DNA from: Oribacterium sp. NK2B42
GTDB taxonomy: Bacteria > Bacillota > Clostridia > Lachnospirales > Lachnospiraceae
Reading direction: 5' to 3'
Assembly: GCF_000424445.1 (NCBI RefSeq)
Contig: NZ_AUJX01000003.1
Location: forward strand, 1 to 64,000
Length of the DNA: 64,000 bases
Shown: one piece after another, positions 31,812 to 63,713 of the stretch
Layout: the number at the start of each line of letters is the position of its first letter
Position numbering within the stretch: position 1 is the first letter of the stretch
Made by a program: the position numbers and the translations under genes
The notes under the pieces: generated by a model
Seen by the model: the letters and a program-made list of their open reading frames with translations, nothing else
Database searches by the model: none
Told to the model about the DNA's origin: nothing

Positions 31812-31812
31812 G

Positions 31813-44923: not shown

Positions 44924-46766
44924 GATTATTGCATCGCTGATTTTATCGGTGATGCTTTTTGCACTGCCGCTTGGAGCAGCTCTCGCGAATAGCTCCACGA
45001 CAGTATCGGTATATGCCGAAGAGAGCGTGTCGGGTAATTCGACAGGAACTGCTGATGATTCTGCAACGGGAAGTAACACGAGTGACAGTTCTGACGGAAA
45101 CGGAACAGGTACGGATGCTCCGAACCCATCTGAAGGCGCTGATGTCGGTACCGTTGATAATTCCAATAAGGGTGACAGCGCTTCTGATAATGGAACAGGG
45201 CCATCCGACCCCACACCGGCTACTGAACCTGCGCCTGAACAGGAGCCAAAATGTATCTGTGACAGCAAGTGTTCACAGTACGATTACAATCATGCATGTC
45301 CTGTGTGCAGTAAGAATTATAAGGACTGCACATATAAGGATCCAAGCGTAAAAATCACGATCAAAGTACCGGACGAATGGTATTCAAGTGGGACTTCCGT
45401 GAAGGTGAAGTTTAAGGTCGAGGATATCCTTGATACCGGGAATTTTGCCATAAAATCCGTAAAGGCAAAGATCGGACAGAATGGCAGTTACAACGATGTT
45501 ACAGAGGATATGTACCTTGAGATTTCTGAAAACTGTACCGTATATGTTCTTGTGACAGATGCCAATGATAAGAGTTATGAGCGGAGCCGCTCTATAAAAT
45601 GCTTTGATACAAGTAAGCCCACCCTTAATGCGGCAGTATCAGACGGACTTTTGACCATTCAGGCTTCGGACAATGACTCCGGTATCCAGGTTATCTATGT
45701 GAACGGGTATGAGTTTACGGATATCACAAATGGCACTGCAAATATAAGACTTTCCCAGTTTGATGCCGGATATGAGTATTTTACGATCACGGCCATGGAT
45801 AATGCCGGCAATGTTTCGGAGGTATATAAGACAAAGAACCCTTATTACAAGGATCCGAATTCTGATGATGACAGTAATCCTGCAGAACAGCTTCCTAAAA
45901 GTGCTGAAGCTACAAAGCCTTCGACTGCTACGGCAACTGTGACAGACCATACAAAGACTGACAGTAATGGAAATACTACAAGTACGGTTAATGCTGCCGG
46001 TACTGCCAGTGCTAATACTTCGCCTGAAGCACACAAGAAAGCAGAGCTAGCAAAGGCGGATGCAGAGGAAACCGTCAAAAAGGATGATGAAAACGAAGAG
46101 GATAAGAATCTTGGAAAAGAGTTTTATACCATTGAGGCTGCAAGCGGAAAGGTATTTTATCTGATTATCGACCGTAACGGAGAGGAGGAGATGGTCTACT
46201 TCCTGACAGAGATCACAGAGAATGATCTTCTTAATGTCACAACAGACAATTCGGAGACTTTGCCGAAGAACTCCGCGGCTCTTGAATCCCAGATTCCTGT
46301 GACAGAGAGCGCTTTGCCAAATAATAATACGGATGTTGATGACACGCATGAAGTAGAAACGCCTTCAGAGACAACTGTAGAAACGGCGGAAGCTGAAACA
46401 GAGGAAACGGTAGAAGATGAACCGGAAGAGCCTGTTAAGAGCAACCCGATTTTAGGCTACATCATAATGGCAATTTTGGGAGCAGGAGTTATCGGAGCGG
46501 CATATTATTTCAAGGTCGTAAAGAAAAGGCAGGACGGCGATTTCATCGAGGATGAGGACGAAGATCCGGAAGAGGAAGTATATGCGGATGATGCTGATGA
46601 ATCTGAAAAAGATGAGGATGATGCATGGTTTGACGAAGGAGATCAGGATTATCCGGAACCTAGCGAGGAGCAGAAGGAACATCCTGCGCCTACAGCAGAT
46701 GATATGGAAGATGTAACTGTATCTGATCCAGAAGACGAGAGTTCTGAGGATGTATTACAAAAATAA
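44901..46766 (+). CDS. CD1107/DUF4366-like surface protein
   Basis: A 621-residue exported protein. Signal peptide at the N-terminus (IIASLILSVMLFALPLGAAL), then a Ser/Thr/Gly/Asp-rich linker, a cysteine-rich stretch (CICDSKCSQYDYNHACPVC), an Ig-like region and a DUF4366 part (GKEFYTIEAASGKVFYLIID). A C-terminal membrane helix (ILGYIIMAILGAGVIGAAYY) with an acidic cytoplasmic tail ends it. Such proteins sit at the cell surface of donors in Tn1549-type transfer modules. Confidence 0.85.
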   Translation: MQRKLSVRIIASLILSVMLFALPLGAALANSSTTVSVYAEESVSGNSTGTADDSATGSNTSDSSDGNGTGTDAPNPSEGADVGTVDNSNKGDSASDNGTGPSDPTPATEPAPEQEPKCICDSKCSQYDYNHACPVCSKNYKDCTYKDPSVKITIKVPDEWYSSGTSVKVKFKVEDILDTGNFAIKSVKAKIGQNGSYNDVTEDMYLEISENCTVYVLVTDANDKSYERSRSIKCFDTSKPTLNAAVSDGLLTIQASDNDSGIQVIYVNGYEFTDITNGTANIRLSQFDAGYEYFTITAMDNAGNVSEVYKTKNPYYKDPNSDDDSNPAEQLPKSAEATKPSTATATVTDHTKTDSNGNTTSTVNAAGTASANTSPEAHKKAELAKADAEETVKKDDENEEDKNLGKEFYTIEAASGKVFYLIIDRNGEEEMVYFLTEITENDLLNVTTDNSETLPKNSAALESQIPVTESALPNNNTDVDDTHEVETPSETTVETAEAETEETVEDEPEEPVKSNPILGYIIMAILGAGVIGAAYYFKVVKKRQDGDFIEDEDEDPEEEVYADDADESEKDEDDAWFDEGDQDYPEPSEEQKEHPAPTADDMEDVTVSDPEDESSEDVLQK

Positions 46767-46828: not shown

Positions 46829-47398
46829 ATGGAAGACATTAAACAGACGGTAGATCATGTCCTGGATGATATCACTGCAAAGCGCAATGAGGCGATGAGA
46901 AAAAATAACGCAACAGAGCAGGGCGGTGAAAGAAAGATGGAGGAGATCACAATCAAGTTCGGAAAGGGCTGTGTGGGTGAGCCATTTATGGGGAAGGATG
47001 GAAAAGAGTATAAGCAGATCCTTATTCCTAATAAGGATGCGAATGATCACAGTCCCTGGGCTACTTTTGTAGCGAGATCAAATGCGGTACATGAGGATAA
47101 ATTCGGAAAGGGGATGTGGATGAAGCTCCCCGCAGACGGTCATACCACAGTACGGAAGGATCACTGCATCGGGGAAGGTGCTGACGGTAAGAAAATCTGG
47201 GAAACGGACAGGACAAAAGTATCCAACAGAGAGCTGAAAGGCATGGTGGAGTTTTATAAGTCCAGAGGCAAGGAACAGGAGGAAAAGCCGAGAGGATCCC
47301 TGAAAGACAGGCTTTCAGAGAAGAAAGCGGAAGTGTCCCATCAGAAGCATGATGCGCCTCAGAAGACTGCCACTAAGTCCAAAGAAGCTTCTTTATAA
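46829..47398 (+). CDS. Hypothetical element protein with shared C-terminal tag
   Basis: A 189-residue soluble protein. The core (EITIKFGKGCVGEPFMGKDG, PNKDANDHSPWATFVARSNA, MWMKLPADGHTTVRKDHCIG) is a beta-rich domain I do not recognise. It ends with RGSLKDRLSEKKAEV and a basic tail, the motif it shares with three other element proteins (49814, 51774, 60714). Site AAAGGAGG. It lies 11 bp before topB. Confidence 0.75.
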   Translation: MEDIKQTVDHVLDDITAKRNEAMRKNNATEQGGERKMEEITIKFGKGCVGEPFMGKDGKEYKQILIPNKDANDHSPWATFVARSNAVHEDKFGKGMWMKLPADGHTTVRKDHCIGEGADGKKIWETDRTKVSNRELKGMVEFYKSRGKEQEEKPRGSLKDRLSEKKAEVSHQKHDAPQKTATKSKEASL

Positions 47399-47408
47399 GG
47401 AGGCTGCC

Positions 47409-49511
47409 ATGGGATACAAGTTAGTGGTTACCGAGAAGCCCAGTGTGGCCAGAGCCTATGCGGATGCGCTTGGCGTAAGGAATGCGCAGGATGGCTACAT
47501 CGAAGGAAACGGTTATATCATTTCATGGTGTGTGGGACACCTGATAGAGTTGGCACAGGCAGATGCTTATGATCCTTCACTTAAGAAATGGTCGTATAAG
47601 TCGCTCCCGATCATGCCGTGGAAGTGGCAGTATGAGATCAAAAAGGATACGAAAGCTCAGTTTAAGGTGCTAAAGAAACTCATGCACGATAAAGGCGTGG
47701 ACGAGACTATTTGTGCAACCGATGCCGGGCGCGAAGGCGAGCTGATTTTCAGACTTGTATATGAGCAGGCAGGATGCGATAAGCCTATTAAGCGTTTATG
47801 GCTTTCCTCCATGGAAGAGAGCGCCATAAGGGAAGGTTTTGCCAATCTAAAACCCGGATATATGTACGAAAATCTTTATCAGAGTGCATTATGCAGACAG
47901 CAGGCCGACTGGCTTGTAGGTATCAATGGCACGAGACTTTTCACAGTACTTTACAACAGGCTTTTAAAGGTGGGAAGGGTGCAGACTCCTACACTTGCAA
48001 TGCTTGTGGACAGGGATGAAGCAATCCGTACCTTTAAGAAAGAACCGTTTTATACCTGCCATATAGATGTAAACGGCATGGAAGCGGTATCTGATAAGTT
48101 CAAGACCAAAGATGAAGCAACATCTGTAGAGGGCTGTGCTGTATTTAATCAGGTTCGTATCACAAAAGTGGAGGAGGAAGAAAAAAGTGTCGCACAGCCG
48201 AGACTTTACGACCTTACCACCTTACAGAGGGACGCCAACCGTATTTTTGGATTTACGGCAAGGCAGACTTTGGATTACACTCAGAACCTTTATGAAAAGC
48301 GCCTTTGTACATATCCGAGAACTGACAGCCAGTTTCTATCTGAGGATATGGGGCAGACTGTAGAGGATGTGATCGGAGCAGTGTTTAAGAGTGTACTAAA
48401 GATGCCGCTGGATTATTCGCCGGATATCGACCGAGTCTTAAACAGCAAAAAAGTCACAGACCACCATGCCGTTATTCCTACGATGGAAATAGCGAAACAG
48501 GATATGGATGCACTTGCAGAGGGAGAGAAGAAGATTCTTTCCCTCATTTCATATCGTGTTCTATGTGCTACAGCAGGACGACATGTGTTTAAGAGCATGA
48601 AGGTGGAGCTTGACTGCGACGGGTACAAATTTCATGCAAGCGGAAAGACCATCATATCCGAAGGCTTTAAGAAATATGAAAAGATGCTCGGGAACTGCTT
48701 TAAGGTAAAAGCCGACGCAGAGGATGAGGAACAGTCTTTGCCTGTGGTACATGAGGGACAGTCATTTCGAGATGTTAATCCGAGAGTGGTCGAGGGCTTT
48801 ACGCAGCCGCCAAAGTCATTCACAGAGGATACGCTCCTTAAGTATATGGAAACAGCCGGTGCATCGGAAATGGATGATGATGTGGAACGTAAGGGGCTTG
48901 GTACACCTGCCACAAGAGCGGATATCATCGAAAAGCTGGTAAAGGATGGGTTCGTCAAAAGAGATAAGAAAAAGCTGATTCCTACGGATGACGGGATCAA
49001 GCTCATAACCATCCTGCCGGATGTGGTGAAATCTCCGCAGATGACAGCAGACTGGGAGAATGCACTTGTCCTTGTCTCAAAAGGTGAGATGAGTGCGGAT
49101 GCCTTTATGAAGGGCATTAAGGAAATGGTAACGGAGTTAATAAAAACATACAGCAGAGTAAGTGAGGAGGAAAAGAAAGTGTTTGATTCAGAAAATGCAA
49201 TCGGGAAATGCCCGAAGTGTGGCGGGGATGTCGTTGTTGGCAAGTATGGAGCTTACTGCACCGAGAAATGCGGCATGAGCCTTGGCTATGCTATGGGAAG
49301 AAAGCTGGAAGAGGAGCAGATTAAGAAGCTTCTTGCAGGAGAAAAGATCTTAATGAAAGGTCTTAAGAGCAAGAAGGGCAAGACCTATGACGCTTTTCTT
49401 AAACCTGAAGGTGTGGAGTCATATGATTACACCAATAAGGATGGGGAGGAAAAGGAGGGATTCCAAATTAAGTTTAGCTTCGAGTTCCCGGAAAATAAGA
49501 AGGGAGCGTGA
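47409..49511 (+). CDS. topB: DNA topoisomerase III (type IA)
   Basis: A 700-residue type IA topoisomerase: TOPRIM (KLVVTEKPSVARAYADAL; CATDAGREGELIFRLVYE), and the catalytic Tyr in CTYPRTDSQFLSED near residue 302. The C-terminus has a zinc ribbon (CPKCGGDVVVGKYGAYCTEK). ATG 47409 has AAGGAGG upstream. Elements of this family carry TopB to relieve torsion in transfer replication. Confidence 0.96.
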   Translation: MGYKLVVTEKPSVARAYADALGVRNAQDGYIEGNGYIISWCVGHLIELAQADAYDPSLKKWSYKSLPIMPWKWQYEIKKDTKAQFKVLKKLMHDKGVDETICATDAGREGELIFRLVYEQAGCDKPIKRLWLSSMEESAIREGFANLKPGYMYENLYQSALCRQQADWLVGINGTRLFTVLYNRLLKVGRVQTPTLAMLVDRDEAIRTFKKEPFYTCHIDVNGMEAVSDKFKTKDEATSVEGCAVFNQVRITKVEEEEKSVAQPRLYDLTTLQRDANRIFGFTARQTLDYTQNLYEKRLCTYPRTDSQFLSEDMGQTVEDVIGAVFKSVLKMPLDYSPDIDRVLNSKKVTDHHAVIPTMEIAKQDMDALAEGEKKILSLISYRVLCATAGRHVFKSMKVELDCDGYKFHASGKTIISEGFKKYEKMLGNCFKVKADAEDEEQSLPVVHEGQSFRDVNPRVVEGFTQPPKSFTEDTLLKYMETAGASEMDDDVERKGLGTPATRADIIEKLVKDGFVKRDKKKLIPTDDGIKLITILPDVVKSPQMTADWENALVLVSKGEMSADAFMKGIKEMVTELIKTYSRVSEEEKKVFDSENAIGKCPKCGGDVVVGKYGAYCTEKCGMSLGYAMGRKLEEEQIKKLLAGEKILMKGLKSKKGKTYDAFLKPEGVESYDYTNKDGEEKEGFQIKFSFEFPENKKGA

Positions 49512-49516
49512 GGAGC

Positions 49517-49669
49517 ATGAAAAAAGCTGTAAAAGTTATGTTTGTCATGATTGCGGCAGGTGCAGCTGTATCAGCAGTAATCATTGGCATAAAAAAGCAC
49601 AGGGACAAAAAAGAATATTCCTGTGATGATTATTATGATTTTATGGAGGAAACAAATGATGAACAGTAA
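49517..49669 (+). CDS. 50-residue single-pass membrane protein
   Basis: ATG 49517 after GTGAGGAG. One hydrophobic segment (VMFVMIAAGAAVSAVIIGI) and an acidic end (CDDYYDFMEETNDEQ). The stop overlaps the next ORF by 14 bp. No family recognised; the tight packing supports it as real. Confidence 0.55.
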   Translation: MKKAVKVMFVMIAAGAAVSAVIIGIKKHRDKKEYSCDDYYDFMEETNDEQ

Positions 49670-49817
49670 AAACTATGTAATCGCAACTGAGGTTGCAGAA
49701 AAGCCAAAGACAAGCGGTAAGGCACGCTTCACAGCATATATGCAGGGCATGAAGAAGCTGGAGCGTAAGGCACAGATGCAGAAGGAAGCAGCAATGAAGG
49801 GAGGAGCAAAAGCATGA
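49656..49817 (+). CDS. 53-residue basic protein
   Basis: Starts at ATG 49656 (site GGAGGAA), MNSKNYVIATEVAEKPKTSG then a Lys-rich helix (KKLERKAQMQKEAAMK). It overlaps the next gene by 4 bp (ATGA). Unknown function. Confidence 0.55.
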   Translation: MMNSKNYVIATEVAEKPKTSGKARFTAYMQGMKKLERKAQMQKEAAMKGGAKA

Positions 49818-50965
49818 ATTACGAAGAGTTTAAGCAGGAAGTGGCAGATCGTATTAAGGAGTTTCTGCCTGAGAAGTACGCAGATGCGGATGTATCCATA
49901 CAGACTGTTGTGAACAACAATGATCAGAAGCTGGATGGTCTTATGGTAAAGCTTGAGGACAGCAATATCGCTCCCAACATTTACCTCAATCAGTTTTATG
50001 AGCAGCATGAGGACGGCAGACCTATGGATGATATCCTGGCTGCAATCGCAGATGTCCACACTCAGCATGAGATGTCACAGGATTTCGATGTTAGCAGGCT
50101 TACGGATTTTGACAGCGTGAAGGATCGTATCACCTGCCGCCTTATCAATGCAGAGCATAATGCGGAATATCTTGCAGATAAGCCTCATACCATGGTGGAT
50201 GACCTGGCTGTTACATACCATATCGCAATCGGCAAAGAAGAGAGCGGCACAATGAGCGCACCTATCACCAACAGTCTCATGGAGGGATACGGTGTGGATG
50301 TAGAGCAGCTCCATCAAATCGCCCTTAATAACATGGACACCCTTACTCCGGCAACCTTCAAGAGCATGACAGAGACCATGGTGGATATGATGCTTCCTGA
50401 TATGATGCGAAATGGCATGACAGAGGAAGAGGCAAGGGAGGCCATCGCCGGTATGATCCCGCCTACACCTGATGAGATGATGTATGTACTTTCCAATGAG
50501 GATAAGTTTAATGGTGCGGCAGTTCTCCTTAACGATAAGGTCATGGATGATATCACCGAGAAGCTGGGTCAGGACTACTTCATCTTACCTTCGAGTGTGC
50601 ATGAGGTGCTGATCGTGCCCAAGAATGATCAGATGGATCTTAAGACTCTTGAGAGCATGGTGCAGGATGTGAATGCCACACAGGTATCGCCGGAGGAAAG
50701 GCTCTCCAATCATGTATATGCCTATGACGCAAAGGAGCATGAGCTTTTCCGTGCAGACAAGGCAGAGGAAAGGGCTGCGGCAAAGGAAGCAGAGGCTTCA
50801 AAGGAAACTGCTGTAGAAAAGACCTCTGCAAAAGAAGAAAAGAGGCAGGAACGTCCTTCCCTTAAGGAGAGACTTGCTCAGAAGAAAGACATTGTTGCCA
50901 AGAATGAGGCAACCAGAGAGCCTCGTCAGATGAATAAGGACAGAGGCTCACAGGCTTTGGCATAA
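49814..50965 (+). CDS. DUF5688 family protein with shared C-terminal tag
   Basis: A 383-residue soluble protein of the DUF5688 type (MNYEEFKQEVADRIKEFLPE, NIAPNIYLNQFYEQHEDGR, PDEMMYVLSNEDKFNGAAVL). A charged Ala/Lys/Glu linker leads into the C-terminal motif ERPSLKERLAQKKDIVA. It appears in the right part of Tn1549-like elements; function unknown. Translationally coupled to the preceding ORF. Confidence 0.8.
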   Translation: MNYEEFKQEVADRIKEFLPEKYADADVSIQTVVNNNDQKLDGLMVKLEDSNIAPNIYLNQFYEQHEDGRPMDDILAAIADVHTQHEMSQDFDVSRLTDFDSVKDRITCRLINAEHNAEYLADKPHTMVDDLAVTYHIAIGKEESGTMSAPITNSLMEGYGVDVEQLHQIALNNMDTLTPATFKSMTETMVDMMLPDMMRNGMTEEEAREAIAGMIPPTPDEMMYVLSNEDKFNGAAVLLNDKVMDDITEKLGQDYFILPSSVHEVLIVPKNDQMDLKTLESMVQDVNATQVSPEERLSNHVYAYDAKEHELFRADKAEERAAAKEAEASKETAVEKTSAKEEKRQERPSLKERLAQKKDIVAKNEATREPRQMNKDRGSQALA

Positions 50966-50992
50966 AGCGTAAAGATTTATTACAGGTGAGCG

Positions 50993-51030
50993 AAAAATCC
51001 CCCGAATAGTCAGAGCGCTTATTCGAGGGA
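50993..51030 (-). terminator. Terminator between DUF5688 gene and antitoxin gene
   Basis: CCCCGAATA and TATTCGAGGG form the stem; on the minus strand it is followed by TTTTT, so it ends the toxin-antitoxin transcript. Confidence 0.7.
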
Positions 51031-51037
51031 AGATATT

Positions 51038-51310
51038 TTATAGTTTTTCAAGACGCATTTTGTATCCAAGAGATCGGATTACTGACATAAAAGTGCTGTA
51101 GGTGATTTTTTCGGCGCTTTCATTGTTTCTAAGCTTTTGAATCACGGTAGGAGAGACAGAAGCCTTTTGTGCAAGTGTACGGACTGAGAGATTTTCTTCT
51201 TCCATTTTTTGTATGATAAACTCGGAGAGAAGGAAATCATCATATTCCTTGTCGAACAAAGCCTTCTGCTTGGGATCATCAGTTATAAATTCATCAAAAG
51301 TGGATTTCAT
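51038..51310 (-). CDS. HTH-type antitoxin (HigA-like)
   Basis: A 90-residue protein with a helix-turn-helix (LSVRTLAQKASVSPTVIQKL). It follows the toxin gene, an inverted order typical of higBA. It is expected to neutralise the toxin and repress the operon through the palindrome at 51718. ATG 51310 is preceded by GGGGGA, and the gene nearly abuts the toxin stop. Confidence 0.85.
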   Translation of the reverse strand: MKSTFDEFITDDPKQKALFDKEYDDFLLSEFIIQKMEEENLSVRTLAQKASVSPTVIQKLRNNESAEKITYSTFMSVIRSLGYKMRLEKL

Positions 51311-51314
51311 TGCA

Positions 51315-51710
51315 TTATTCCCCCTTTCCATTCTTATTCTTTTCATCAACCGCCTTTTTATACGCTGCCATGTTCTTTAGCGCAGTGGACTTTTCGTTTG
51401 GAGGCAGTTTATCTGATTTCTTATGGTATGCATTTGTGACGATAATCTTCTTTCCTGTGAAGAAAAAGCAAAGATATCTATCCGGCTGAGGCTTAAAAGC
51501 GTATATATCATCGCCCTCATTCCGGAACTTTGTTTTATCGTAAATGATACCAAAGTCGGCAAGTTTCTTTACAAGGATAAGAAACTTACGTTTCTGAACA
51601 GCAGACGCTTTCAAAAAGTACTCATAAGCCTGACTGATACCCTTGTCATCGAAATACCACTCGACTTTATAAAACTCACCTTCGTAAATTAAACATGTAT
51701 CTTTATTCAT
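51315..51710 (-). CDS. RelE/HigB-type toxin
   Basis: A 131-residue protein similar to phage-derived Gp49/HigB-type RelE toxins: [74 protein letters not shown]. These cut mRNA on the ribosome. The pair lies on the opposite strand between two transfer-region genes and would act as an addiction module. Confidence 0.85.
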
Positions 51711-51717
51711 GGCTTAA

Positions 51718-51739
51718 GTGTATCACATTTGTGGTACAC
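51718..51739. promoter_or_regulatory. Palindromic operator between toxin gene and giant polyprotein gene
   Basis: GTGTATCACA, TT, TGTGGTACAC: 10-bp arms with one mismatch, 7 bp before the toxin ATG and 34 bp before the start of the divergent gene. A good candidate binding site for the HigA-like repressor. Confidence 0.6.
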
Positions 51740-51773
51740 ATGCAACTATAAAATAATAGAGGAGAAACAGGCT

Positions 51774-54700
51774 ATGGCAAGAAAATATGATGAGATCAAA
51801 TGGCTTGCACAGGCTACGGCGCAGGATTTATCGGCAGATACGGAAAAGTGGAAGGGATTCCTTACCACTGCCGGAAGGCTATACCGGTATTCTTTCATGG
51901 ATCAGCTGCTTATCTATGCCCAGAGACCGGATGCCACAGCATGTGCAGAGCTTGAAACATGGAATCAGAAGATGAACTGCTGGGTCAACCGTGGCTCCAA
52001 AGGTATCGCTCTTTTGGATGAAAGCAGCGGCAGACCAAGGCTCAGATACGTTTTTGATGTATCAAATGTGCATCCCGGATGGAATGTGGGAAGACTTCCG
52101 TACATATGGCAGATCAGAGAACGGAATGAGCAGACTGTTCTTAACAAACTTGAAAACATATATGGAAAAACTGATGAAAGCAGACCTTTCGGTGACAGAC
52201 TGGTGGAGCTGGCACACCGTATTGCGGATGATTATTACGGGGATGTAATGCCGGATCTTCAGGACAGGGTGGATGGAAGCTTTCTGCAAGGATATGATGA
52301 AATGAATCTTGAGCTTCGGTTGCAGGATACCATGAGAGACTCCATCGCATACACGCTTCTTAAAAGGTGCGGTGTAGATACAGAGCTATATGATTTTGAC
52401 TTTCGTTATCTTCATGAGTTCAGCGATGTGAAAACACTTTCGATACTGGGTAATGCTGTATCGGAAATGACAGAGCCGGTGCTCATGGAAATCGGAAGAG
52501 CGGTAACGGCACAGGAGCGTCATATCGCCCGATATGGCGAAGTAGAAAGACAAACGGAGAATATATCACAAGCCGTAGAAAAAAGCCAAAATACGCTTGC
52601 AAATGAGGCTCAGAATGAATATAATGCTTTAAAGCGTGAAAGCGAGCGGCAAGGTGATATTTCCACCGATGATTATGAAAAAGGCGAAAGCGCTAATATT
52701 TCAGAACAAGGAGGAAATGACCATGGAACTGACTTACATGCAGAGCGGGGATTATCTGATCCCGAACCTGATCGCGAACAGCGAGCCGGAGGAACCCTTA
52801 ACGAAGTACGGACTGATGCGGAGGAATTTCTTAAAGGAACACAGGAGAGGAACCTACAGCGGGATGATGTTGGAGGGGAATCTGAAGGAGCACTGCCTGA
52901 TGATTCAGAAACAGGCAGAGGAGAGGATGGATATTCTGACCGATCAGATGGCGAAGTCACAGGGAGTGAACGAAGCCCTGAAAGCATCAGACCAGATGAA
53001 GTGGGTGGGGCTGATGAACAACATCCGGGCATCGGCGGAGGAGATAGTTTTATCGGAGCTGATCTACAGCTAAACCCTCCGGATGCAGAACTTAAGCAAC
53101 TGAATATGTTTGACCTGTTCCCCTCATTTGCGGAGCAGGTTGGAACGATAGCAGCAGCGGAAGCAAGCGTGAAAACGAAGGCTCCCGCTGTTTTTATGTT
53201 AAAAGACGATCAGCTTCTTGATGTGATAAGGTCCGGTGGCGGTAAAGAGAATAACCGTAAGCGCATCTATGCGAAGTACCAGGCAGGAAAAGATGCTGCG
53301 GAAATGACGGATTTCATTAAGAACGAGATCGGAACGACAGGTAAGGGTTTTGAATTTGACGGGCAGAGGGTATCTGTCTGGTATAACGAAAACGGAATGA
53401 GCATCGCACCGGGGAACTCTGCTCAGGTGGACTTTGCCACTACCTATAGTTGGAGCCTTGTGGAAGAGTTCACCCGTCAGATGGTGGAAAACGGCTCATA
53501 TATGTCAAGAAATGAAGCCTTTCTTGTGGACAGTACCGAGCGGGCGAGGGTGGCTGATCAGATATATTTCTTCTTCCGTGACGGCATTGATGATATGCCT
53601 GATTCTCTTTCCATCCAGGGAAGTAATTATCCCGACAGCCAGGCACATATCGCAGAGCTTTTAACTACCCATGAGGGAAGGGAGCTGCTTGCAGAGGAGA
53701 TTGGCAGGGCTGCGGACAGGATAGAGAGCGGAGAGTTACAGATACGATGGAGATATGTAAAAGAGCCGGAGTACCTACTTTCAGAGATTGCCGACCTCGA
53801 TGCGGAAAGAAGGGAGTTTCCTCTTGCAGATGAGGTAAATGTAAGGCTTGAAAACTTCATTACCCAGGATGAGATTGACAGCAGGCTCACCCATGGAAGC
53901 GGTGTATCGCAGGGTCTTTTCCGTATATACGATTATTTTAAGGAGGGGCATGACAGCAAGGATAATGTTGCGTTCCTTAAAAAAGAATATGGTACAGGTG
54001 GACAGTCGGATGCCCTGATCGGAAATGACAAGAGTTGGGAAGACCATGATGCAAAGGGCATTCAGCTTGACAAGGGAAGTATCATGGAGCCTTATACATC
54101 CGTGCTTCTTAACTGGAACGTGGTAGAAAAGCGTATCCGTGAACTGATCGCAGAAGATAAGTACCTGTCTCCCAAGGCAAAGGAAGCTTATGCGGAGTAT
54201 AAAAAGGAGCAGGAAAAGGAAGCTCTTGCGGATGAGCAGGAAAAACTTGTTGATGCCATTGAAGCCGGGGATGCACAGGAAGAGCCTGAAAGCAAAGAGG
54301 CAGATCATAATCCCGAATTCGGTCCGCCTGTCGGACGGGGAGAAAACAGCCGCTGGTCGATAGTCCATGAAGCGGATGATGAAAATGATAATCCCCAGGA
54401 GTGGGCAACAAAGCTCCCTTCCGGTCAGTATGTATGGATAGACCGTGAGGAAGATGGTTCATATGGGATTCATCCGGTTGCTGATTCTTTTGCTACTCCT
54501 ACGGAGACCTTCAGGACTCTTGAAGAGGCGCAGGAGTATGTAGACGAGACCATGCGAGGAGATTTAGAGCAGGAGTCTCCGACATATACAATCTATCAGA
54601 TCTCTGACGAAGCAGAGGACAGACGGGATATCATCTTTGAAAATCTGGAGCACCTGCAGAACAGAGGACTGTCTGTTGATGCGGCAAACTACGAGGCTGT

Positions 54701-57700
54701 CTATACCGGAGCATTGGAGGAAGGCACTACCCTCGAAGATCTTTATGAGAAGTTCAACATAGATCACCCTGCAGATTACAAGGGACGCTCCATGTCCGTA
54801 TCGGATGTGGTGGTATTGCATCAGAATGGTGAGGACAAGGCATATTTCGTGGATTCATTTGGATTTTCGGAGGTGCCGGAGTTTCTTCGGGAAAAAGAAG
54901 CAGTCCTTACTCCGGAGCAGGAGCAGGCAAAGGAGCTTATCAATGAGTTCTGCTACAGGGAGTATGACCACGATGCGGATTTCTCTGACCTTTCCAATGT
55001 GGAGATAGCTTATACCGACCTTATAGATGAAGCAGACGGAAAAGAGTACCCGATACAGGCGTCTGTAGACCTTGAGCATAACAGCATCCGTCTTGCGATT
55101 GACGGGCAAATCATTTCTCAGAATGAATATGATACCCTTACCGACCTTATAGAAAATGAGCTTAAGTACCTTGATTTTGACGAGCTTACCTATGTATCAG
55201 AAGAGGACTGGGCGAAGTTCCATAACATGGAGCTTACCGCAGAGGAGATACAGAACATTTCCTATATCGGAGCGGAGTACAGCAATTTCGGGCATACTGC
55301 TGAGTATGAGCTTGAAGCAGATATCCGGGGAGAGCATCAGAAGATTCATTATGAGGTTACAAGGCATGATGGGGATGAAGAGAGTTTTTCTATTCATACA
55401 GATAAGAACGATATTTATGACAGGCTTTCTGAACCGGAGCTTCGTAAGCTGGAGGAGAAACTATCAGATGAAGTCAGGGTCGGACAGTATGAAAAGAAGA
55501 TTGAAAAAGCGGATAGCCTTGATGCAGTTAAGAACATCCAGTATGAGTTTATGGATGATGAGAGCTTTCCAAGGAGGCTTGCTGGAAGATTTTGGGAATC
55601 CTATAACGCAAGAGAGGCAGAACTATCTGAGACGGCAAGGATTGAAGCAAAGAATTTCCGTATTACTGATGATGACCTGGGAAAAGGCAGCGCAAAGGAA
55701 AAGTTCCGTGGCAATATCAGGGCGATTACAACTTTGAAGCAGATCGAGGACGAACACAGGACAGCCACGCCCGAAGAACAGCAGATTTTATCACAGTATG
55801 TCGGCTGGGGCGGACTTGCGGATGCCTTTGATGAAACAAAGAGCAACTGGTCTGCGGAATATCGGGAATTAAAGAGTGTGCTGACACCGGAGGAGTACAA
55901 TTCTGCAAGGGAGAGTACCCTTAATGCACATTTCACAAGCCCCGTGATCATAAGAAATATCTATGAAGCTCTGGGACAGATGGGCTTTGAAAAGGGAAAT
56001 ATCCTTGAGCCTGCCATGGGTGTAGGGAACTTCTTTGGTATGCTGCCAGAGGAGATGCAGGACAGTAAGCTATATGGAGTGGAGCTTGATGATCTGACAG
56101 GCCGCATCGCAAAGCAGCTCTATCCGCAGGCAGATGTGCGTATCAGCGGATATGAAAAGACCGATTTTCAGAATGATTTCTTTGATGTGGCGGTTGGAAA
56201 TGTTCCATTCGGAAATTATAAGGTCAGCGACAAGCCGTATGATAAACTGAATTTTCAGATTCACGATTATTTCTTTGCAAAGACCTTGGATAAAGTAAGA
56301 CCGGGCGGTATCGTAGCATTTGTTACAAGCAAGGGAACCATGGATAAGCAAAGCCCACAGGTGAGAAAGTACCTTGCACAAAGGGCAGAGCTGCTCGGTG
56401 CGGTGAGATTACCCAATACAGCTTTTAAGGAGAATGCCGGTACAGAAGTAACGTCCGACATTCTTTTTTTCCAGAAAAGGGACAGGCTGATGGATATAGA
56501 GCCGGACTGGGTGCATCTTGGCATGGATGAAAACGGTATCGCCATGAACCAGTATTTTGCAGACCATCCTGAGATGATCGTAGGAAAGATGGAAATGGTA
56601 TCCGGACCTTTTGGTCTGGAGAGTACCTGTGTGCCGGATGAGAGCAGACCATTTGAGGAGCAGCTTCGTGAGGCAATCAGCAATATTCATGCGGAATATG
56701 AAGCGGTGGAGCTTTCAGCGGATGAGCTTGGAAAATCTGACCTTGAAGTAATACCGGCGGATCCGAATGTAAAGAATTACAGCTTCTGTATGGTGGATGA
56801 TCATGTGTATTATCGTGAGAATTCCGTTATGAAGCCTGCCGATGTGTCAGAAACACAAGAAGACCGCATCAAAGGTATGATCGCTATCCGTGACTGTACG
56901 CAGGAACTTATTCAGATGCAGATGGAGGATTATCCCGATGCAGCCATTACGGAGAAACAGGCAGAACTGAACGGATTATATGATAAGTTTTCCGATAAAT
57001 ACGGGCTTATCAGTTCCCAAACCAATAAGAGAGCCTTTAATCAGGACTCTTCATACTGCCTACTCTGTTCTTTGGAGAAGCTGGATGATGAGGGGAAGTT
57101 TCTTGGAAAAGCGGATATGTTCACGAAGCGTACCATCAAACACGCAGAGGTGGTGACAAGCGTTGATAACGCAAGCGAGGCATTGGCGGTCTCCCTGGCT
57201 GAAAAAGCCAAGGTAGACCTTGCCTATATGGCAGAGCTTACGGGAAAGGAAAAAGAAGCCATAACCGAGGAGCTGGCAGGAGTTATATTCCGGAATCCTT
57301 TGACAGACCAGTGGGAGACAGCAGATGAGTATCTGTCCGGTAATGTCCGTGAGAAGCTGTCCATAGCAAAGAACTATGCGGAGAATCACCCAGAGTATCA
57401 GGTGAATGTGGCGCATCTTGAACAGGTAATGCCAAAAGATCTTGAAGCATCGGATATCGAAGTACGCCTTGGGGCAACATGGGTAGACTCGAAATATATC
57501 GAGGACTTTATGCGTGAGACTTTCCAGACACCGGGATATCTTTTTGACCGGAATGTCATGGGCATACAGTATTCGAATGTGACCGGGCTTTGGAATGTAA
57601 AAGGTAAGAATGCAGACTATGGCAATACCCTTGCCAACATGACCTTTGGTACAGGAAGGGCGAATGCCTATAAGATACTGGAGGACAGCTTAAACCTTAA

Positions 57701-60662
57701 GGATGTGCGTATCTATGATACTATCGTGGAAGATGGCAAGGAAAAGAGGGTGCTGAATAAGAAGGAGACCACCCTTGCTGCACAGAAGCAGGAGGCAATT
57801 CGTGAAGCCTTTAAGGACTGGATTTTTAAGGATTCGGAGCGGAGAGCCAATCTTGTAAAGGTCTATAATGAGCGTTTCAATTCCACAAGACCAAGGGAAT
57901 ATGACGGATCACACTTGCAGTTCCCGGGTATGACACCGGATATAGAGCTTAAGCCGCACCAGAAGAATGCGGTAGCCCACGTATTGTATGGGAATAATAC
58001 GCTCCTTGCACACTGCGTAGGTGCCGGCAAGACCTTTGAAATGACTGCGGCAGCGATGGAACTGAAAAGGCTGGGACTTGCACAGAAGTCGCTGTTTGTA
58101 GTACCAAACCACTTAACAGAGCAGTGGGCATCAGATTTCTTAAAACTTTATCCCGGAGCTAATATACTTGCGGCAACGAAGAAGGACTTTGAGCCTGCAA
58201 ACCGTAAGAAGTTCTGTTCCCGTATAGCGACAGGCGATTATGATGCTGTTATCATCGGTCATACTCAGTTTGAAAAGATCCCTCTGTCACAGGAAAGACA
58301 GGTGGCGATACTGGAGCGGCAGATAGATGAGATCACGGAAGCCATAGCACAGGCAAAGGCTGACAGGGGTGAGCGATATACCATCAAACAGATGGAAAAA
58401 TCCAAGAAGCAGCTTATGACAAGGCTTGATAAATTAAATGATCAGAGCCGTAAGGATAATGTCGTAACCTTTGAACAGCTTGGCGTTGACAGGCTTTTTG
58501 TAGACGAGTCACATTCATACAAGAATTTGTTCCTATATACCAAGATGCGTAATGTAGCAGGTATCGCACAGACAGAGGCACAGAAGTCGCAGGATATGTT
58601 CAACAAATGCCAGTACCTTGATGAACTGACAGGTGGTAAGGGTGTGACCTTTGCAACCGGAACGCCAATTTCCAACAGCATGACAGAGCTTTACACCAAC
58701 ATGAGATATCTTCAGTATGGTACGCTTCAGAAGCTGGGACTGGGGCAGTTTGATGCATGGGCGGCTAATTTTGGTGATACACAGACTGCAATAGAGCTTG
58801 CGCCGGAAGGAACCGGATACAGGGCAAAGACGAGGTTTGCGAAGTTCTTTAACCTGCCGGAGCTGATCGCACTTTTTAAGGAGAGTGCCGATATACAGAC
58901 ACCGGATATGTTAAAACTCCCTGTGCCGGAGGCAGAGTATGAAAATGTGACATTAAAGCCGTCCGAAGCGCAGAAGGAAATGGTAGCATCCCTGGCAGAC
59001 AGGGCAGAGCGGGTGCGTAACCGTATGGTGGATTCATCTGTCGATAATATGCTTAAGATCACTAACGATGGCAGGAAGCTCGCCTTAGATCAGCGTCTTA
59101 TGAGCGATATGCTGCCGGATGATCCTAACAGTAAGTCCAGCGTATGCGTGGAAAAAGCATTTGAGATGTGGGAGGAGACAAAAGATAAGCGGTCGGCCCA
59201 GCTCATTTTTTGCGATTTGAGTACACCTAAAGGAGATGGAACCTTCAATGTATATGAGGATATTAGGGACAAGCTGATAGCAAAAGGAGTGCCACCGGAA
59301 GAGATAGCCTTTATCCATGATGCGAATACCGAGACGAGGAAAGCGGAGCTGTTTGGCAAAGTAAGAAGCGGACAGGTCCGTTTTTTATTGGGATCAACAC
59401 AGAAGATGGGAGCCGGTACGAACGTGCAGGACAGGCTGATAGCACTTCATCACTTGGATGTGCCATGGAGACCGTCTGACATTGAACAGCAGGAAGGTCG
59501 TATCTTACGACAGGGTAATACCAATCCGAAAGTAAAGATCTTCCGATATGTCACGGAAGGCACATTTGATGCCTACTCATGGCAGCTCATCGAGAATAAG
59601 CAGAAATTCATCGGGCAGATCATGACCAGTAAATCTCCGGTCAGAAGCTGTGAGGATATCGACGAGGCGGCTCTTACCTATGCAGAGGTCAAGGCACTTG
59701 CTACGGGTAATCCGTACATTAAGGAAAAGATGGACTTGGATATCCAGGTATCGAAGCTGAAGCTGATGAAAGCGAACCATACCAGTCAGAAATACAGACT
59801 GGAGGATAATATTGCGAAGAATTATCCGCAGCAGATATCAGCGTTAAAAGAGCGTATTGCCGGAATGAAGGCAGATATCGCAACCTATAATGCAAACAAG
59901 CCTGCGGATAAGGATATCTTCACCATGACGGTAGCCGGAAAGACCTATGATGACAGGAAGGAAGCCGGAACAGCGATCATCGGTATCTGTAAGGAAATGA
60001 AGCAGGCAAATGTGGCTGTGCCAATCGGTGAGTATCTGGGTATGAAGATGAATGTAACCTTTGATTCATTTTTCAGGAAGTTTACGCTGAACATGAAGGG
60101 AAAACTCAGCCATGAAGTGGAGGTTGGCTCTGATCCGTCCGGTAATATCACCCGTATCGGTAATGCCATGGAATCAATGTCAAAACAGCTTGAGGATGCG
60201 ATTGCGAAGCTTGCCAATGTGGAACAGCAGCTTGAAATCGCAAAGATTGAGGTGGAAAAGCCGTTCCCGCAGGAGAAGGAGCTTAACGATAAGCTGACAA
60301 GGCTTGCAGAACTGAACAGCCTGCTTGATATGGATGAAAAAGGCGAGGATGCAGTTGATCTTGATGAAGATGCTCCAAAGCCGGAGAAAGAAACAGCAGA
60401 ACAGACCGAGACGGTAGTGCCGGCACAGGAGGCTACCAAAGAGGCAGGTCACATATCGGAGGATAAGGCTGAAATAAGCGAAAAAGCTGAGGAGGCTGAT
60501 ATATCAGAAACAGAGGATATGGGGAACCCTGCAACAAAACCGGAGACAAAAGAGGAAAGACCGTCCCTTGTCGCAAGGCTTAATGAGAAGAAGGCGGTTG
60601 TAGCTGCCATGGATCAGAAAGCACCTGCGGTAGCAAAGAAAAAAGAAGAGGTTATAGCATAA
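51774..60662 (+). CDS. Giant N6-methylase/SNF2-helicase polyprotein, DarB-like
   Basis: A 2962-residue protein. The N-terminus ([20 protein letters not shown] and [15 protein letters not shown]) resembles ArdC-type antirestriction domains. Residues 317-433 are a disordered linker that also encodes TnpV in another frame. A class I methylase core follows: [17 protein letters not shown] (about 1410) and the motif IV variant NVPFG (about 1474). Then an SNF2/superfamily 2 helicase: [12 protein letters not shown] (about 2080), VDESHSYKN (about 2243), TGTPISNSM and [11 protein letters not shown] (about 2570). A coiled-coil region precedes the C-terminal tag [17 protein letters not shown]. Methylase-helicase fusions of the P1 DarB type protect incoming DNA from restriction. 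ATG 51774 follows GAGGAGA. Confidence 0.92.
52723..53073 (+). CDS. tnpV: TnpV-family protein nested in another frame of the giant gene
   Basis: A 116-residue protein lying wholly inside the giant gene in its +1 frame. It has the TnpV pattern known from Tn4451-type elements: start [16 protein letters not shown], then [20 protein letters not shown], and the end [20 protein letters not shown] with [12 protein letters not shown] strong site AAGGAGG (52708-52714) lies 8 bases before ATG 52723. In the giant frame the same bases code a Gly/Asp/Glu/Arg-rich linker, so the TnpV frame looks like the constrained one. Its biochemical role is unknown. Confidence 0.8.
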
Positions 60663-60668
60663 GATTAA

Positions 60669-60699
60669 AAGGCTTCGGGGATTATCTCCGGAGCCTTTT
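60669..60699 (+). terminator. Terminator after giant gene
   Basis: AAGGCTTCGG pairs with CCGGAGCCTT (one wobble) then TTTTG. The next gene starts 15 bp later, so the stop may be partial. Confidence 0.7.
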
Positions 60700-60713
60700 G
60701 GAAAGGAGCGGAA

Positions 60714-62072
60714 ATGGCAAAGGATGAAACAAAAGGCGAAAGCCTTAACGATGCCGCTGTCATAAGCGCATTTAAGGACAAGACCAAAGAGAAATTTCAT
60801 GAGCTTGACGGCATGGATCCTGAAACGATAGAAGCTAATGTCAAAAATATAGTGCAGGGCATTGTGAATGATTATGGGATGGATGTAACCATTGAGGATG
60901 TAGTGGTATCCGGCAGTAGATGCAGAGGCATGGAAGAGCAGGGGTCTGATCTTGATGTTGTGCTGTATTACAGCGGTTCGGTGAGAGAGGACGATCTGTT
61001 TAACACTCTTAATCAGGGAAATATCATTATGGGTGGTGTAAAGCTCGATATAAACACAATATCACAGGAACAGCACGGGAGTCTTTCCGAGTATCTGACA
61101 GGCGTGGAAGCGTACCTTGCCGAAAAGCAGGCACAAATGATGCAGGAAGCGCAGCAGCGTAACACGGAGATAACCTATACCGTTGCGGAGTGCGGCGAAT
61201 TTCACAGCATGGGAACCTATCATGAGGGAATTTCCACTATAGAAGAGGCAAAAGCTCTGTTTGAGAGCATCCGTGAAAATCATAGCAATATGATCCCTGC
61301 TGTCGGCATCAACATACATGAAGCCGGGACACCGGAGATAGATGATGTGCAGATGGATGTACTTTATGGAAACAGCATAGATCTTGATGATCTGCGGTAT
61401 GTTCCTCAGATATGGAATAATCAGGAGGGACTCTCAAAGGTCGGACAGATCATTGATGAATTCCCGGATGTAAAGGTAATCGGGACACTGCCGGGATTAA
61501 CTGTACAGGATATACCGGAACAGGATATGGATGCTGTTAAGCCGGTATATGTGGACGAGGCTGCGAAGCTGGCGGCTGAAATAGACCGCTTTTCCAGTGA
61601 CTTTGATCCGTATGAGTACAAAGATACGGTCGATAACTGGGAGTTACAGGTGCAGAACATAGCCGATGATATAAGAAACGGCAACTCTGCGGATTATAAG
61701 AAGTACCTGGGAACTGTGATAGAAGAGAGTGACAACATCGAGGATGTCCGCAAGGCTGCGGAACTTCTTGTGAAGCTGGCAGAGTATAAGCCACTTGCCA
61801 AAGTGGAGGAGCTTGAAGAGGTCAATCTTAACCAGATCGACAATGTACTCAGCAACACGGTTCCAAAATCCGAGGAGAAAAGGGAAGCACGGCAGGCGGA
61901 GCAGGAACGCATCGAGGAAGAAGAGCGAAAGCGCAGGGCAAGAGGGGAGCGTCCATCACTTCGGGCGAGACTTGCGGCAAAGAAAGCGATAGTAGCTGCC
62001 GGAGGCGGAAGCCCCCAAAGAAGTAAACAGCGAGAGGCGCAGGAAGCATTAGCTTCACAGAGGGGTTTATAA
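60714..62072 (+). CDS. Nucleotidyltransferase-domain element protein with shared C-terminal tag
   Basis: A 452-residue protein. Residues 60-110 hold a nucleotidyltransferase-fold core: SGSRCRGMEEQGSDLDVVLY (GSRxRG plus the SDLD metal-binding Asp pair) and VKLDINTI with the third Asp. A middle domain (YTVAECGEFHSMGTYHEGIS and YGNSIDLDDLRYVPQIWN) resembles polyvalent-protein-associated domains in element and phage proteins. It ends GERPSLRARLAAKKAIVA plus a basic tail, matching three other element proteins. Substrate unknown; it could modify RNA or protein in a recipient. Site GAAAGGAG. Confidence 0.8.
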   Translation: MAKDETKGESLNDAAVISAFKDKTKEKFHELDGMDPETIEANVKNIVQGIVNDYGMDVTIEDVVVSGSRCRGMEEQGSDLDVVLYYSGSVREDDLFNTLNQGNIIMGGVKLDINTISQEQHGSLSEYLTGVEAYLAEKQAQMMQEAQQRNTEITYTVAECGEFHSMGTYHEGISTIEEAKALFESIRENHSNMIPAVGINIHEAGTPEIDDVQMDVLYGNSIDLDDLRYVPQIWNNQEGLSKVGQIIDEFPDVKVIGTLPGLTVQDIPEQDMDAVKPVYVDEAAKLAAEIDRFSSDFDPYEYKDTVDNWELQVQNIADDIRNGNSADYKKYLGTVIEESDNIEDVRKAAELLVKLAEYKPLAKVEELEEVNLNQIDNVLSNTVPKSEEKREARQAEQERIEEEERKRRARGERPSLRARLAAKKAIVAAGGGSPQRSKQREAQEALASQRGL

Positions 62073-62585
62073 AATTAGTGTTTGTGTATGTGGCGCGGGA
62101 TCAGGCAGCGCAGCGGGAATTGATGGAAATGGAATAGCCTGTAAAGAAATATCTTCAAATTTAGTGTAATTACTAAGAGCAGGGAATTGTGATAATCACA
62201 GCCACCCTGCTCTTTTCATGTCTATTTAAAATTCGTAAAACTATTAATTTCTTTACTGTCGTAAATACGTACACAAATATTTCTTAAATCATTATATGAC
62301 GTTTATGTCAACTTCATAAGCAAATCATCGGAAAATAAGGTAAACATGCCTAAAAATCCAATAAACCATCCTTGACCATCTAAATAAATTTCCAATGATT
62401 TGCGAATACTGATTTGACTTTATATTTCTTTATCGACACAAATACCCGATTTCTTTAGTACAAATTAAAAATATTTTTAAATCAGGCTTTTAATGCTACA
62501 AGGGGACAGTAGAAAGATGTGATAATCAGCTAATTCTCCGTCAGCAGATGCGTCTGATTTGCCAAAAGGAAAGGAGACCAGAATT
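62073..62585 (+). other. AT-rich intergenic region with inverted repeat
   Basis: 513 bp with no gene I can support. Besides the terminator at 62176, CAAATCATCGGAAA (62321-62334) and TTTCCAATGATTTG (62389-62402) form a 14-bp inverted repeat with one mismatch and 54 bp between. ATTTCTTTA occurs three times (about 62247, 62427, 62451). TTGACC (about 62371) is a candidate -35. It could be a recombinase site, a promoter region, or the right end of the element. Confidence 0.5.
62176..62217 (+). terminator. Terminator after NTase gene
   Basis: AGAGCAGGG pairs with CCCTGCTCT; the loop holds a second small stem (TGTGATAATCACA). Followed by TTTC. Confidence 0.85.
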
Positions 62586-63713
62586 ATGGCTAGAAAAGGT
62601 GAAAACATCTACAAAAGAAAGGATGGACGGTGGGAAGCCAGATATATCATTGGCCGCTATGCAAACGGACGGGCAAAATATCGGTCTGTTTATGCATTGA
62701 GTTACTCGGAAGTTAAGAAGAAACGTCAGGACGAAATGCTCAAGATGGCAGACATGAACTATGAAGGCCAACCTAAAGCAGGAACGGTTGAAACCGTTGC
62801 AAAGGCATGGATCAAGGACAGCTCCCACAAGTGGAAGGAATCCACCAAATGCCGCTATCAGGAAAAGCTGGGCATCTACATTCTGCCGCATTTTGGAAAG
62901 CGTGAGTTTTCCGACATCAGCACAGCGGAAATTGAATCCTTTATATCTATGATTCAGACAGAAGGAATGACGGGCAGAAAACCAGTCGGTGCCGGCACAG
63001 CCAGGTCTGTGCTGACAGTTTTTAAGCAGATACGGCTCCATGCGCTCAAAATGGATTATCAGGTACGCTTTAACCCGGAGTGCATTGTAGTCAGATCGCA
63101 GAAGGCAGAAATAAAGGTATTTTCTGAAGCAGAGGAGAAGAAACTTGTTGCCGAGTTAAAATCCGATACTGATGAGACGGATGTAGGATTTCTCACCTGT
63201 CTGTTTACGGGCATCCGCGTCGGCGAACTTTGCGCTTTGAACTGTGACAATATAGATCTGGAGAGTAGAGTAATCCGTATCCGTGCCACCATGCAGCGCC
63301 TTCCGGATCATAGCGGAGGAGATAAAAAGACGAAGGTCACGATAAGTAAACCGAAAAGTGAATGCTCAATTCGGGATATACCCATAAATAAAGAACTTTT
63401 AGAAGTGCTCCGCAGGTTTTACAAACCCGGAGCATTTCTGTTGACCGGCGATAAGGAGAAATTTGTAGAGCCAAAGACTATGGAGAACCGTTTTAAGAGC
63501 ATCCTTAAGAAATGTGACTTGAAGCCAGTCGGTGTCCACAGCACCAGACATACTTTTGCATCCCGTTGCATTGAGAGGGGGATGGACCCCAAGACCTTAT
63601 CAGAGATCCTCGGTCACGCAAATGTGGCTACCACGCTCAATACATACGTCCATAGTAACAAGAAGAGTAAAGAGGACGGAGTGAATATGCTCTCAGATTT
63701 ATTCTCCGTATAG
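62586..63713 (+). CDS. Tyrosine recombinase/integrase
   Basis: A 375-residue site-specific recombinase. It has an N-terminal arm-binding part (KRKDGRWEARYIIGRYANGR), a SAM-like core-binding domain (about 60-160) and a catalytic domain. Catalytic residues: Arg in CLFTGIRVGELCALN (about 209), HSTRHTF (His and Arg, about 317-321), GHANVATT (His, about 344) and Tyr in NTYVHS (about 354). It may integrate the conjugative element. Alternatively it belongs to the following polysaccharide-type locus, since similar recombinases sit at the head of such loci in Lachnospiraceae. ATG 62586 follows GGAAAGGAGA. Confidence 0.92.
   Translation: MARKGENIYKRKDGRWEARYIIGRYANGRAKYRSVYALSYSEVKKKRQDEMLKMADMNYEGQPKAGTVETVAKAWIKDSSHKWKESTKCRYQEKLGIYILPHFGKREFSDISTAEIESFISMIQTEGMTGRKPVGAGTARSVLTVFKQIRLHALKMDYQVRFNPECIVVRSQKAEIKVFSEAEEKKLVAELKSDTDETDVGFLTCLFTGIRVGELCALNCDNIDLESRVIRIRATMQRLPDHSGGDKKTKVTISKPKSECSIRDIPINKELLEVLRRFYKPGAFLLTGDKEKFVEPKTMENRFKSILKKCDLKPVGVHSTRHTFASRCIERGMDPKTLSEILGHANVATTLNTYVHSNKKSKEDGVNMLSDLFSV

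Follow-up and report, generated by a model that had tools for sequence, protein, structure and literature searches.

The 64,000-nt stretch analysed here (the window), positions 1 to 64,000 of contig NZ_AUJX01000003.1 of Oribacterium sp. NK2B42, contains an element at 29895-63713 that encodes a type IV secretion system (T4SS). Several unrelated soluble proteins of this element carry the same short tag close to their C-termini, and related elements place it on these and further protein families, in spellings that follow the element, while the channel components lack it. We assign a probability of about 65% to the reading that this tag is a short linear C-terminal signal marking the substrates of the element's T4SS; its best candidate reader, as judged from sequence comparison, is the CD1115/Tn1549-type coupling protein.

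A C-terminal tag on proteins of the element

A six-frame scan of the window with the strict pattern SLxxRLxxKKxxV (open frames of at least 40 residues) gave exactly four matches, each near the C-terminus of an element protein. The four peptides singled out in a preliminary description of this DNA are all present at the protein ends where it placed them, namely PRGSLKDRLSEKKAEV in a 189-aa protein (47288-47335; all features are on the forward strand unless noted), ERPSLKERLAQKKDIVA in a DUF5688 protein (50849-50899), a 17-residue peptide in a giant protein (60555-60605) and ERPSLRARLAAKKAIVA in a nucleotidyltransferase-like protein (61947-61997). The site given for the first peptide is right, with a corrected start of 47288, since the position 47282 reported for it adds two residues (EK). 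The tails that follow these peptides comprise 20, 21, 18 and 24 residues, respectively. Counted from the end of the strict pattern, 20, 22, 19 and 25 residues remain in the open reading frames (ORFs) 46829-47398, 49814-50965, 51729-60662 and 60714-62072, which agrees with the short tails of 13-35 residues described before. A profile built from the four tags recovered the same four from the 3.79 Mb genome of the strain (E 5e-13 to 6e-12) and one weak match (E 1.15). A fifth, divergent tag, ESVRNRLNRYKELW, lies at the C-terminus of the PcfB/DUF3801 protein (35638-35679) and was recognised by a model trained without PcfB (shuffle p=0.006). Neither the strict pattern nor a model match was found in the VirD4, VirB6, PrgI, VirB4, NlpC/M23, CD1107-like and topoisomerase proteins of the window. 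A much looser regular expression also catches the ParB, VirB6 and PrgI of the window, together with 7 of 204 control ORFs. Recent duplication of the tail at the DNA level was rejected, because codon pairs encoding the same residue were identical in 33 cases and synonymous in 33.

More widely defined, the C-terminal tag reads S[VLI]xxx[LI]xxxK, with a tail of about 19 residues, mostly basic, behind it; the motif of the window represents one dialect. Among 115 tags, S is present in 99%, L or I five residues further on in 98% and K at +9 from S in 71%, percentages that are partly circular as the tags were chosen by the model. Behind the 14-mer a median of 19 residues remains to the protein end (interquartile range 16-21, n=115; the search was confined to the last 60 residues of the proteins). 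The tails are net positive in 87% of cases; the ends of 149 control proteins have a mean charge of -0.10 per residue. Tagged proteins end in L, R or I in 90 of 116 cases; for channel and maintenance proteins the count is 48 of 280, and for ORFs of control regions 43 of 174. Such ends are frequent in cargo-type families even where the tag is missing (61 of 85 proteins, DUF5688 left out), so that the extreme C-terminus may form a second part of the signal. The idea that the tails are degrons, suggested by ends such as LA, was rejected as a general explanation, as 34 of the 115 tagged proteins end in R. In an AlphaFold2 (AF2) model of the last 152 residues of the 189-aa protein, of which about the first 105 are predicted with confidence, the tag is a lone helix (residues 121-133) within the low-confidence tail.

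Distribution among protein families and elements

The DUF5688 proteins provide a comparison of tagged and untagged forms of one domain. This domain is present in 140 of 150 genomes of the family to which the window belongs, with several copies in many of them. Among the 30 best DUF5688 loci only the window copy bears the tag, and the 29 others lack it by eye; the untagged proteins end at the domain, and the window copy adds just a linker and the tag from about residue 306 on. In 20 regions, chosen for a long open frame or a suspected element and not at random, DUF5688 is tagged in 7 of the 8 that contain close relatives of the element's genes and in none of the 12 others (Fisher p=0.0001). The value becomes p=0.003 with regions L094 and L097 assigned to the element group, and p=0.005 with L090, an untagged DUF5688 region with a YodL-like frame, added as well. 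In the eighth element region, L105 (L105:184-1889, genome G135), the DUF5688 frame stops before the tail. On this comparison the tag is an addition to the DUF5688 domain and not something inherited along with it. A tag-like stretch occurs in L105 in a separate short frame downstream of the DUF5688 gene.

A first model, trained only on eight DUF5688 tails and applied to 20 PcfB-anchored elements of the class, pointed to PcfB, the giant proteins, the ArdC, ArdA, YodL and DUF4316 proteins, DUF3848, DUF3849 and the MobA_MobL relaxases. Each family was then scored by a model from which it had been left out, a protein passing at p<0.01 against its own shuffled sequence; this and the later family count exclude ORFs lacking a stop and tails with at least 70% identity to one already included. 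Across 17 cargo-type families 56 of 148 proteins passed, including PcfB (12/15), long PcfB (2/6), the nucleotidyltransferases (4/4), proteins similar to single-stranded DNA-binding protein (SSB-like, 3/3; the 189-aa protein of the window has p=0.0005), DUF5688 (9/51), the giants (4/9), YodL (3/13), ArdC (2/6), LPD16/DUF4316 (0/1), the MobA_MobL (MobQ) relaxases (8/26) and the remaining seven families (9/14). Families u269, u272, L099a-c, DUF3848, DUF3849, ArdC, YodL, LPD16/DUF4316 and MobQ were defined after one tagged member had been seen, and their founding members are not independent; L099b (DUF4316) and L099c (DUF3849-like) are also related to families kept in training. Several misses carry a variant of the tag on inspection, for example the giants of L107 and L114. 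Only 1 of 131 channel, partition, replication and topoisomerase proteins passed, a RepA (RepA 1/20). The others gave VirB4 0/12, VirB6 0/9, PrgI 0/15, NlpC 0/11, CD1107 0/13, VirD4 0/28, topoisomerase 0/10, ParA 0/6 and ParB 0/7.

A second set of loci was drawn by domain and not by the tag: the conserved stretches of the 189-aa protein detected 115 relatives in GTDB genomes, the best 80 loci of which were used. At least three of their contigs (Butyrivibrio hungatei, Acetitomaculum ruminis and AC2028) match contigs of the earlier set in length. With the final model, trained on all families, the tag was found in DUF5688 (18/18), PcfB (12/14), SSB-like (19/33), YodL (4/5), ArdC (4/6), giant (1/4), MobQ (1/1) and MobP (1/3) proteins, the MobP case resembling a chance match to a coiled coil, and in 8 of 622 proteins with no family assigned. 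Of the 14 SSB-like proteins that failed, most have a weaker version of the tag on visual inspection; those of L218 and L231 have none. None of the 152 VirB4, VirB6, PrgI, NlpC, CD1107, topoisomerase, VirD4, ParA, ParB, RepA and small DUF proteins of these loci passed. The absence of the tag from channel proteins, as first described, is thus confirmed in both family counts, in which VirB4, VirB6, PrgI, NlpC, CD1107 and VirD4 together gave 0/88 and 0/112.

The same bias appeared among ORFs called without regard to family, of which 46 of 987 passed in element regions versus 0 of 204 in control regions (score of at least 8, p<0.02; Fisher p=0.0002); some five of those that passed are accounted for by short ORFs, a RepA or a misplaced match. 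The ORF caller was greedy and missed the PcfB of the window, having kept a longer overlapping frame on the opposite strand.

Some leads from these searches were abandoned. A class-wide profile of the short tag, which matched 11 of 391 genomes at E<=0.03 (the strain's own and G207 included), proved too short for distant cases and was replaced by the family anchors PF18941, PF12687 and PF03389. VirD4 itself had seemed to bear the tag, as a C-terminal IEKYLxxKLKxK-type stretch scored with the first small model; it was discarded on the final-model result of 0/28. A homolog of the giant protein in Erwinia phage PEp14, considered as a contrast, is uninformative on the tag, as the relevant stretch runs past the homologous region.

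Unrelated proteins of one element share the spelling of the tag more than expected by chance. In L113/L114 the PcfB, the LPD16/DUF4316 protein, the giant and the DUF3849 protein all bear PSL[LI]xKLxxxxP-like tags, and in L120 and L122 the form S[IV]LGxI+xYQ is common to the giant and a protein of 225-272 aa. The MobQ relaxase of L158, located in the same genome as L120 on another contig, carries PSVIAQIKKYQ. When tags of 20 elements, compiled by hand from model output, were shuffled between elements within families, the observed within-element similarity was never reached in 5000 trials (p=0.0002), and a reduced set without PcfB gave the same value (p=0.0002).

Such dialects could also result from local copying, if domain shuffling had carried the tails from one gene to its neighbours, with little or no function attached to them; the tails do terminate neighbouring genes and vary in sequence. 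This explanation appears very improbable to us, as S129 is invariant in 15 aligned PcfB proteins with only 32-51% overall identity to the window copy, the spacing to the protein end is tight, the residues shared between the tags of the window differ in codon half the time, and copies of DUF5688 away from such elements have no tail.

Proposed recognition by the coupling protein and competing explanations

A signal read by the coupling protein would account for the sharing of one helix, at near-fixed spacing and in element-specific spelling, by unrelated soluble proteins and some relaxases, as well as for the lack of the tag in the channel parts. According to this model, the tag forms a single amphipathic helix (S-[LVI]-x-x-x-[LI]-x-x-x-K), which a charged and flexible linker would hold some 33 residues before the protein end, with the mostly basic tail, tending to end in L, R or I, behind it. 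The CD1115-type VirD4 (35739-37685), perhaps aided by the neighbouring PcfB, would bind the helix, and the bound protein would be fed into the channel with the DNA or just after it. The SSB-like, anti-restriction, methylase-helicase and nucleotidyltransferase proteins, and some relaxases, would then act in the recipient. The secretion signal proposed in the preliminary description is partly supported.

Signals of this general kind are known. In alpha-proteobacteria the BID domain and a positively charged tail form a bipartite T4S signal of relaxases, toxins and Bartonella effectors (PMC6509941). Like the tag, it is a single C-terminal signal found on relaxases as well as on unrelated proteins of the effector type; it likewise has a charged tail, a genetic link to a VirD4-type T4SS and classes that partly follow the coupling protein (PMC6509941). 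However, about 100 residues fold into the BID domain, whereas the tag of these Gram-positive elements comprises about 14, is predicted to be a lone helix and is defined by sequence; in the one tagged cargo protein that was modelled, the tag is a 13-residue helix in the low-confidence tail and not a BID-type fold. The signals of the F plasmid conjutome are likewise located near the C-terminus and many are net positive, but they are described by charge and hydrophobicity, unlike the fixed key residues, near-fixed spacing and element dialects reported here (PMC11288057). Conjugative delivery was predicted for the polyvalent proteins of Tn1549-like elements (PMC5512222). The ArdC, ArdA, YodL and methylase-helicase proteins found tagged here belong to that group, and Pol-beta nucleotidyltransferases are also discussed there; no description of a common C-terminal signal was found in that study, the main text of which does not mention DUF4316, a signal peptide, a targeting signal or a short motif (PMC5512222). 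The Pfam family DUF3801, which matches residues 24-153 of the window PcfB, already covers the tag, and by coordinates the DUF4316 match runs into it (L206, L099). Both families thus record the tag as family-specific conservation, and its sharing between families is new here. In the open-licence literature no description of the tag, or of any sequence-defined substrate signal of Gram-positive conjugation, was found, and the term 'translocation signal' is absent from a 2025 T4SS review. C-terminal T4SS signals being of a known kind and delivery of polyvalent proteins having been predicted in print, it is a motif-defined, dialect-bearing Gram-positive signal that would be new.

The PcfB gene (35257-35742) is located directly upstream of the VirD4 gene and overlaps it, and few alignment columns of PcfB are as well conserved as those of the S and L in its tag. 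The PcfB of pMG2200, encoded next to a CD1115-family VirD4, is tagged as well (p=0.001, full model); both PcfB proteins of the Anaerococcus prevotii DSM 20548 conjugative plasmid pAPRE01 fail (p=0.07 and p=0.61). The gene overlap and the column conservation would also suit a role of PcfB as a substrate chaperone or adaptor, whose own tag keeps the receptor site of VirD4 (or of PcfB) filled and is then displaced by true cargo. We consider this role very unlikely; a structure search with the AF2 model of PcfB yielded no informative match, and the proposal refines the signal reading as much as it rivals it.

Relaxases with the MobA_MobL domain were surveyed by domain and not by tag. A match was present in 34 of 245 genomes, and 30 loci were taken among the matches listed; with the earlier loci included, these make up the 26 non-redundant MobQ relaxases scored above. 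Four of the eight that pass have related tails (L123, L139, L154 and L157), and those of L029, L152, L156 and L162 differ. On pAPRE01 3 of 31 tested coding sequences pass, out of 86 rows listed for two stretches: the MobQ relaxase WP_012797132.1 (p=0.001), WP_012797164.1 and WP_012797165.1. To judge from its tail, WP_012797164.1 probably represents the C-terminal part of a giant protein, the gene of which is broken by a group II intron ORF. At L257:12560-22544 of this plasmid the reverse-transcriptase ORF of a group II intron apparently divides a giant helicase-related gene, whose downstream piece is tagged. An association of the relaxase tag with T4SS linkage was considered and dropped, as no clear pattern emerged. 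In L298 and L302 the gene of the MobQ relaxase is flanked by pieces homologous to VirD4, an arrangement that would fit insertion of a mobilizable unit into the coupling-protein gene. None of 11 MobP relaxases passed the leave-one-family-out test, which suggests that they use another route or an adaptor; PcfB, being tagged and encoded beside VirD4, would be a candidate for the latter. On the question raised in the preliminary description, whether the motif is limited to soluble cargo and relaxases, the results are largely positive, as seen for the channel parts, the control ORFs, the DUF5688 proteins found elsewhere and several MobA_MobL relaxases; the MobP relaxases and PcfB, which is encoded next to the coupling protein, are the exceptions.

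The consistent tagging of a VirD4-linked protein such as PcfB (12/15 and 12/14) and the lack of the tag on MobP relaxases would also be expected if the tag docked a common partner in the donor (the relaxosome, PcfB or a replication/partition complex) and gathered element proteins at the DNA or membrane without secretion. Action of the tagged proteins in the donor is compatible with all of the results. We nevertheless regard donor docking as unlikely, since the ParA, ParB, RepA and topoisomerase proteins, which would be expected in such a complex, are untagged (1/43, a RepA, and 0/37), and since many tagged families, such as ArdC, ArdA and the DarB-like methylase-helicase, are considered to function during entry into the recipient or afterwards (PMC5512222, PMC7213743).

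Several observations weigh against a transfer signal. ParA and ParB are untagged here, though the T4SS of F moves both along with SSB and PsiB (PMC8406263). The ArdC of R388 acts when made in the recipient; its supply in the donor was no help, with export not ruled out (PMC7213743), so that transfer cannot be deduced from an Ard domain alone. PcfB is not known to act as cargo. Among relaxases, 18 of the 26 MobQ proteins lack the tag at p<0.01, as do the MobP proteins, and in 20 MobQ regions VirD4, VirB or PcfB pieces were found near 3 of 8 tagged versus 5 of 12 untagged relaxases (one of the tagged at p=0.012), within the fetched stretch. No relaxase was recognised in the element of the window with MobP and MobQ queries. 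In MobP-type elements the giants (L117, L140) and ArdC proteins (L115, L117, L135, L140) are untagged at p<0.01, and the long PcfB of the same elements is tagged in L115, L117 and L140 (L135 p=0.02). In L094 and L097 an untagged DUF5688 gene lies near distant VirD4 homologs and MobP relaxases; these may perhaps represent another conjugation family, one that does without the tag. Finally, the dialect test gives p=0.045 once the window element and L113/L114, the two clearest cases, are removed.

A more general proposal, to which we give slightly less than an even chance, is that the tag, with its dialects, serves as a common address label of Gram-positive CD1115/Tn1549-type conjugation, through which relaxases, PcfB, an SSB-like protein and polyvalent proteins of the anti-restriction type are directed to the coupling protein. 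The injected set of many uncharacterised elements would then be readable from sequence, and mobilizable elements with tagged relaxases could hitchhike. If transfer is indeed what the tag signals, it would identify the proteins that accompany the DNA, recognition by the coupling protein would become testable with a peptide, and the joint dispatch of unrelated anti-restriction proteins would be accounted for. Orphan families (element-borne DUF5688, DUF3801/PcfB and DUF3848/3849) would acquire a first role as transferred or transfer-linked proteins.

Gene content of the element

The element begins past a class II tRNA synthetase gene (28068-29570), presumably of the Lys type, and its genes are arranged in the order ParA, ParB and RepA_N (30116-32835, all untagged), PcfB, VirD4, VirB6, PrgI, VirB4, M23/NlpC, CD1107-like, 189-aa protein, topoisomerase, DUF5688, giant, nucleotidyltransferase-like protein and integrase (62559-63713), which marks its right side. 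The names VirB6 and PrgI are those that we take to apply to the respective genes. The channel-related products comprise the VirB6-like protein (38331-39203), the VirB4-like ATPase (39580-42168), the M23/NlpC-P60 cell-wall enzyme (42140-44608) and the CD1107-like protein (44901-46766). The type IA topoisomerase (47349-49511) is soluble and yet untagged; its frame overlaps the 3' end of the gene of the 189-aa protein unless the topoisomerase starts later.

The 189-aa protein (46829-47398, true start possibly 46940) had no match in Pfam, NCBIfam or PHROG. Its AF2 model has a beta-rich core, for which 41 of 50 Foldseek rows shown were bacterial SSBs, none of them significant (best SSB E 0.043); the top row was a heme protein (E 0.03), with TM scores of at most 0.37. 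The protein is thus tentatively described as SSB-like. The DUF5688 protein is encoded at 49814-50965. The giant protein (51729-60662, 2977 aa, likely start 51774) is of the polyvalent type, with a YodL domain, ResIII and SNF2 helicase matches and below cut-off matches to an Eco57I-type methylase and Helicase_C. The nucleotidyltransferase-like protein (60714-62072) has Pol-beta/NTP_transf_2 matches below the curated cut-offs. The nearest relaxase seen (PF03432, L004:17395-18858) is untagged and is encoded on the opposite strand about 15 kb beyond the integrase, from which it is separated by sugar-related genes and a second integrase.

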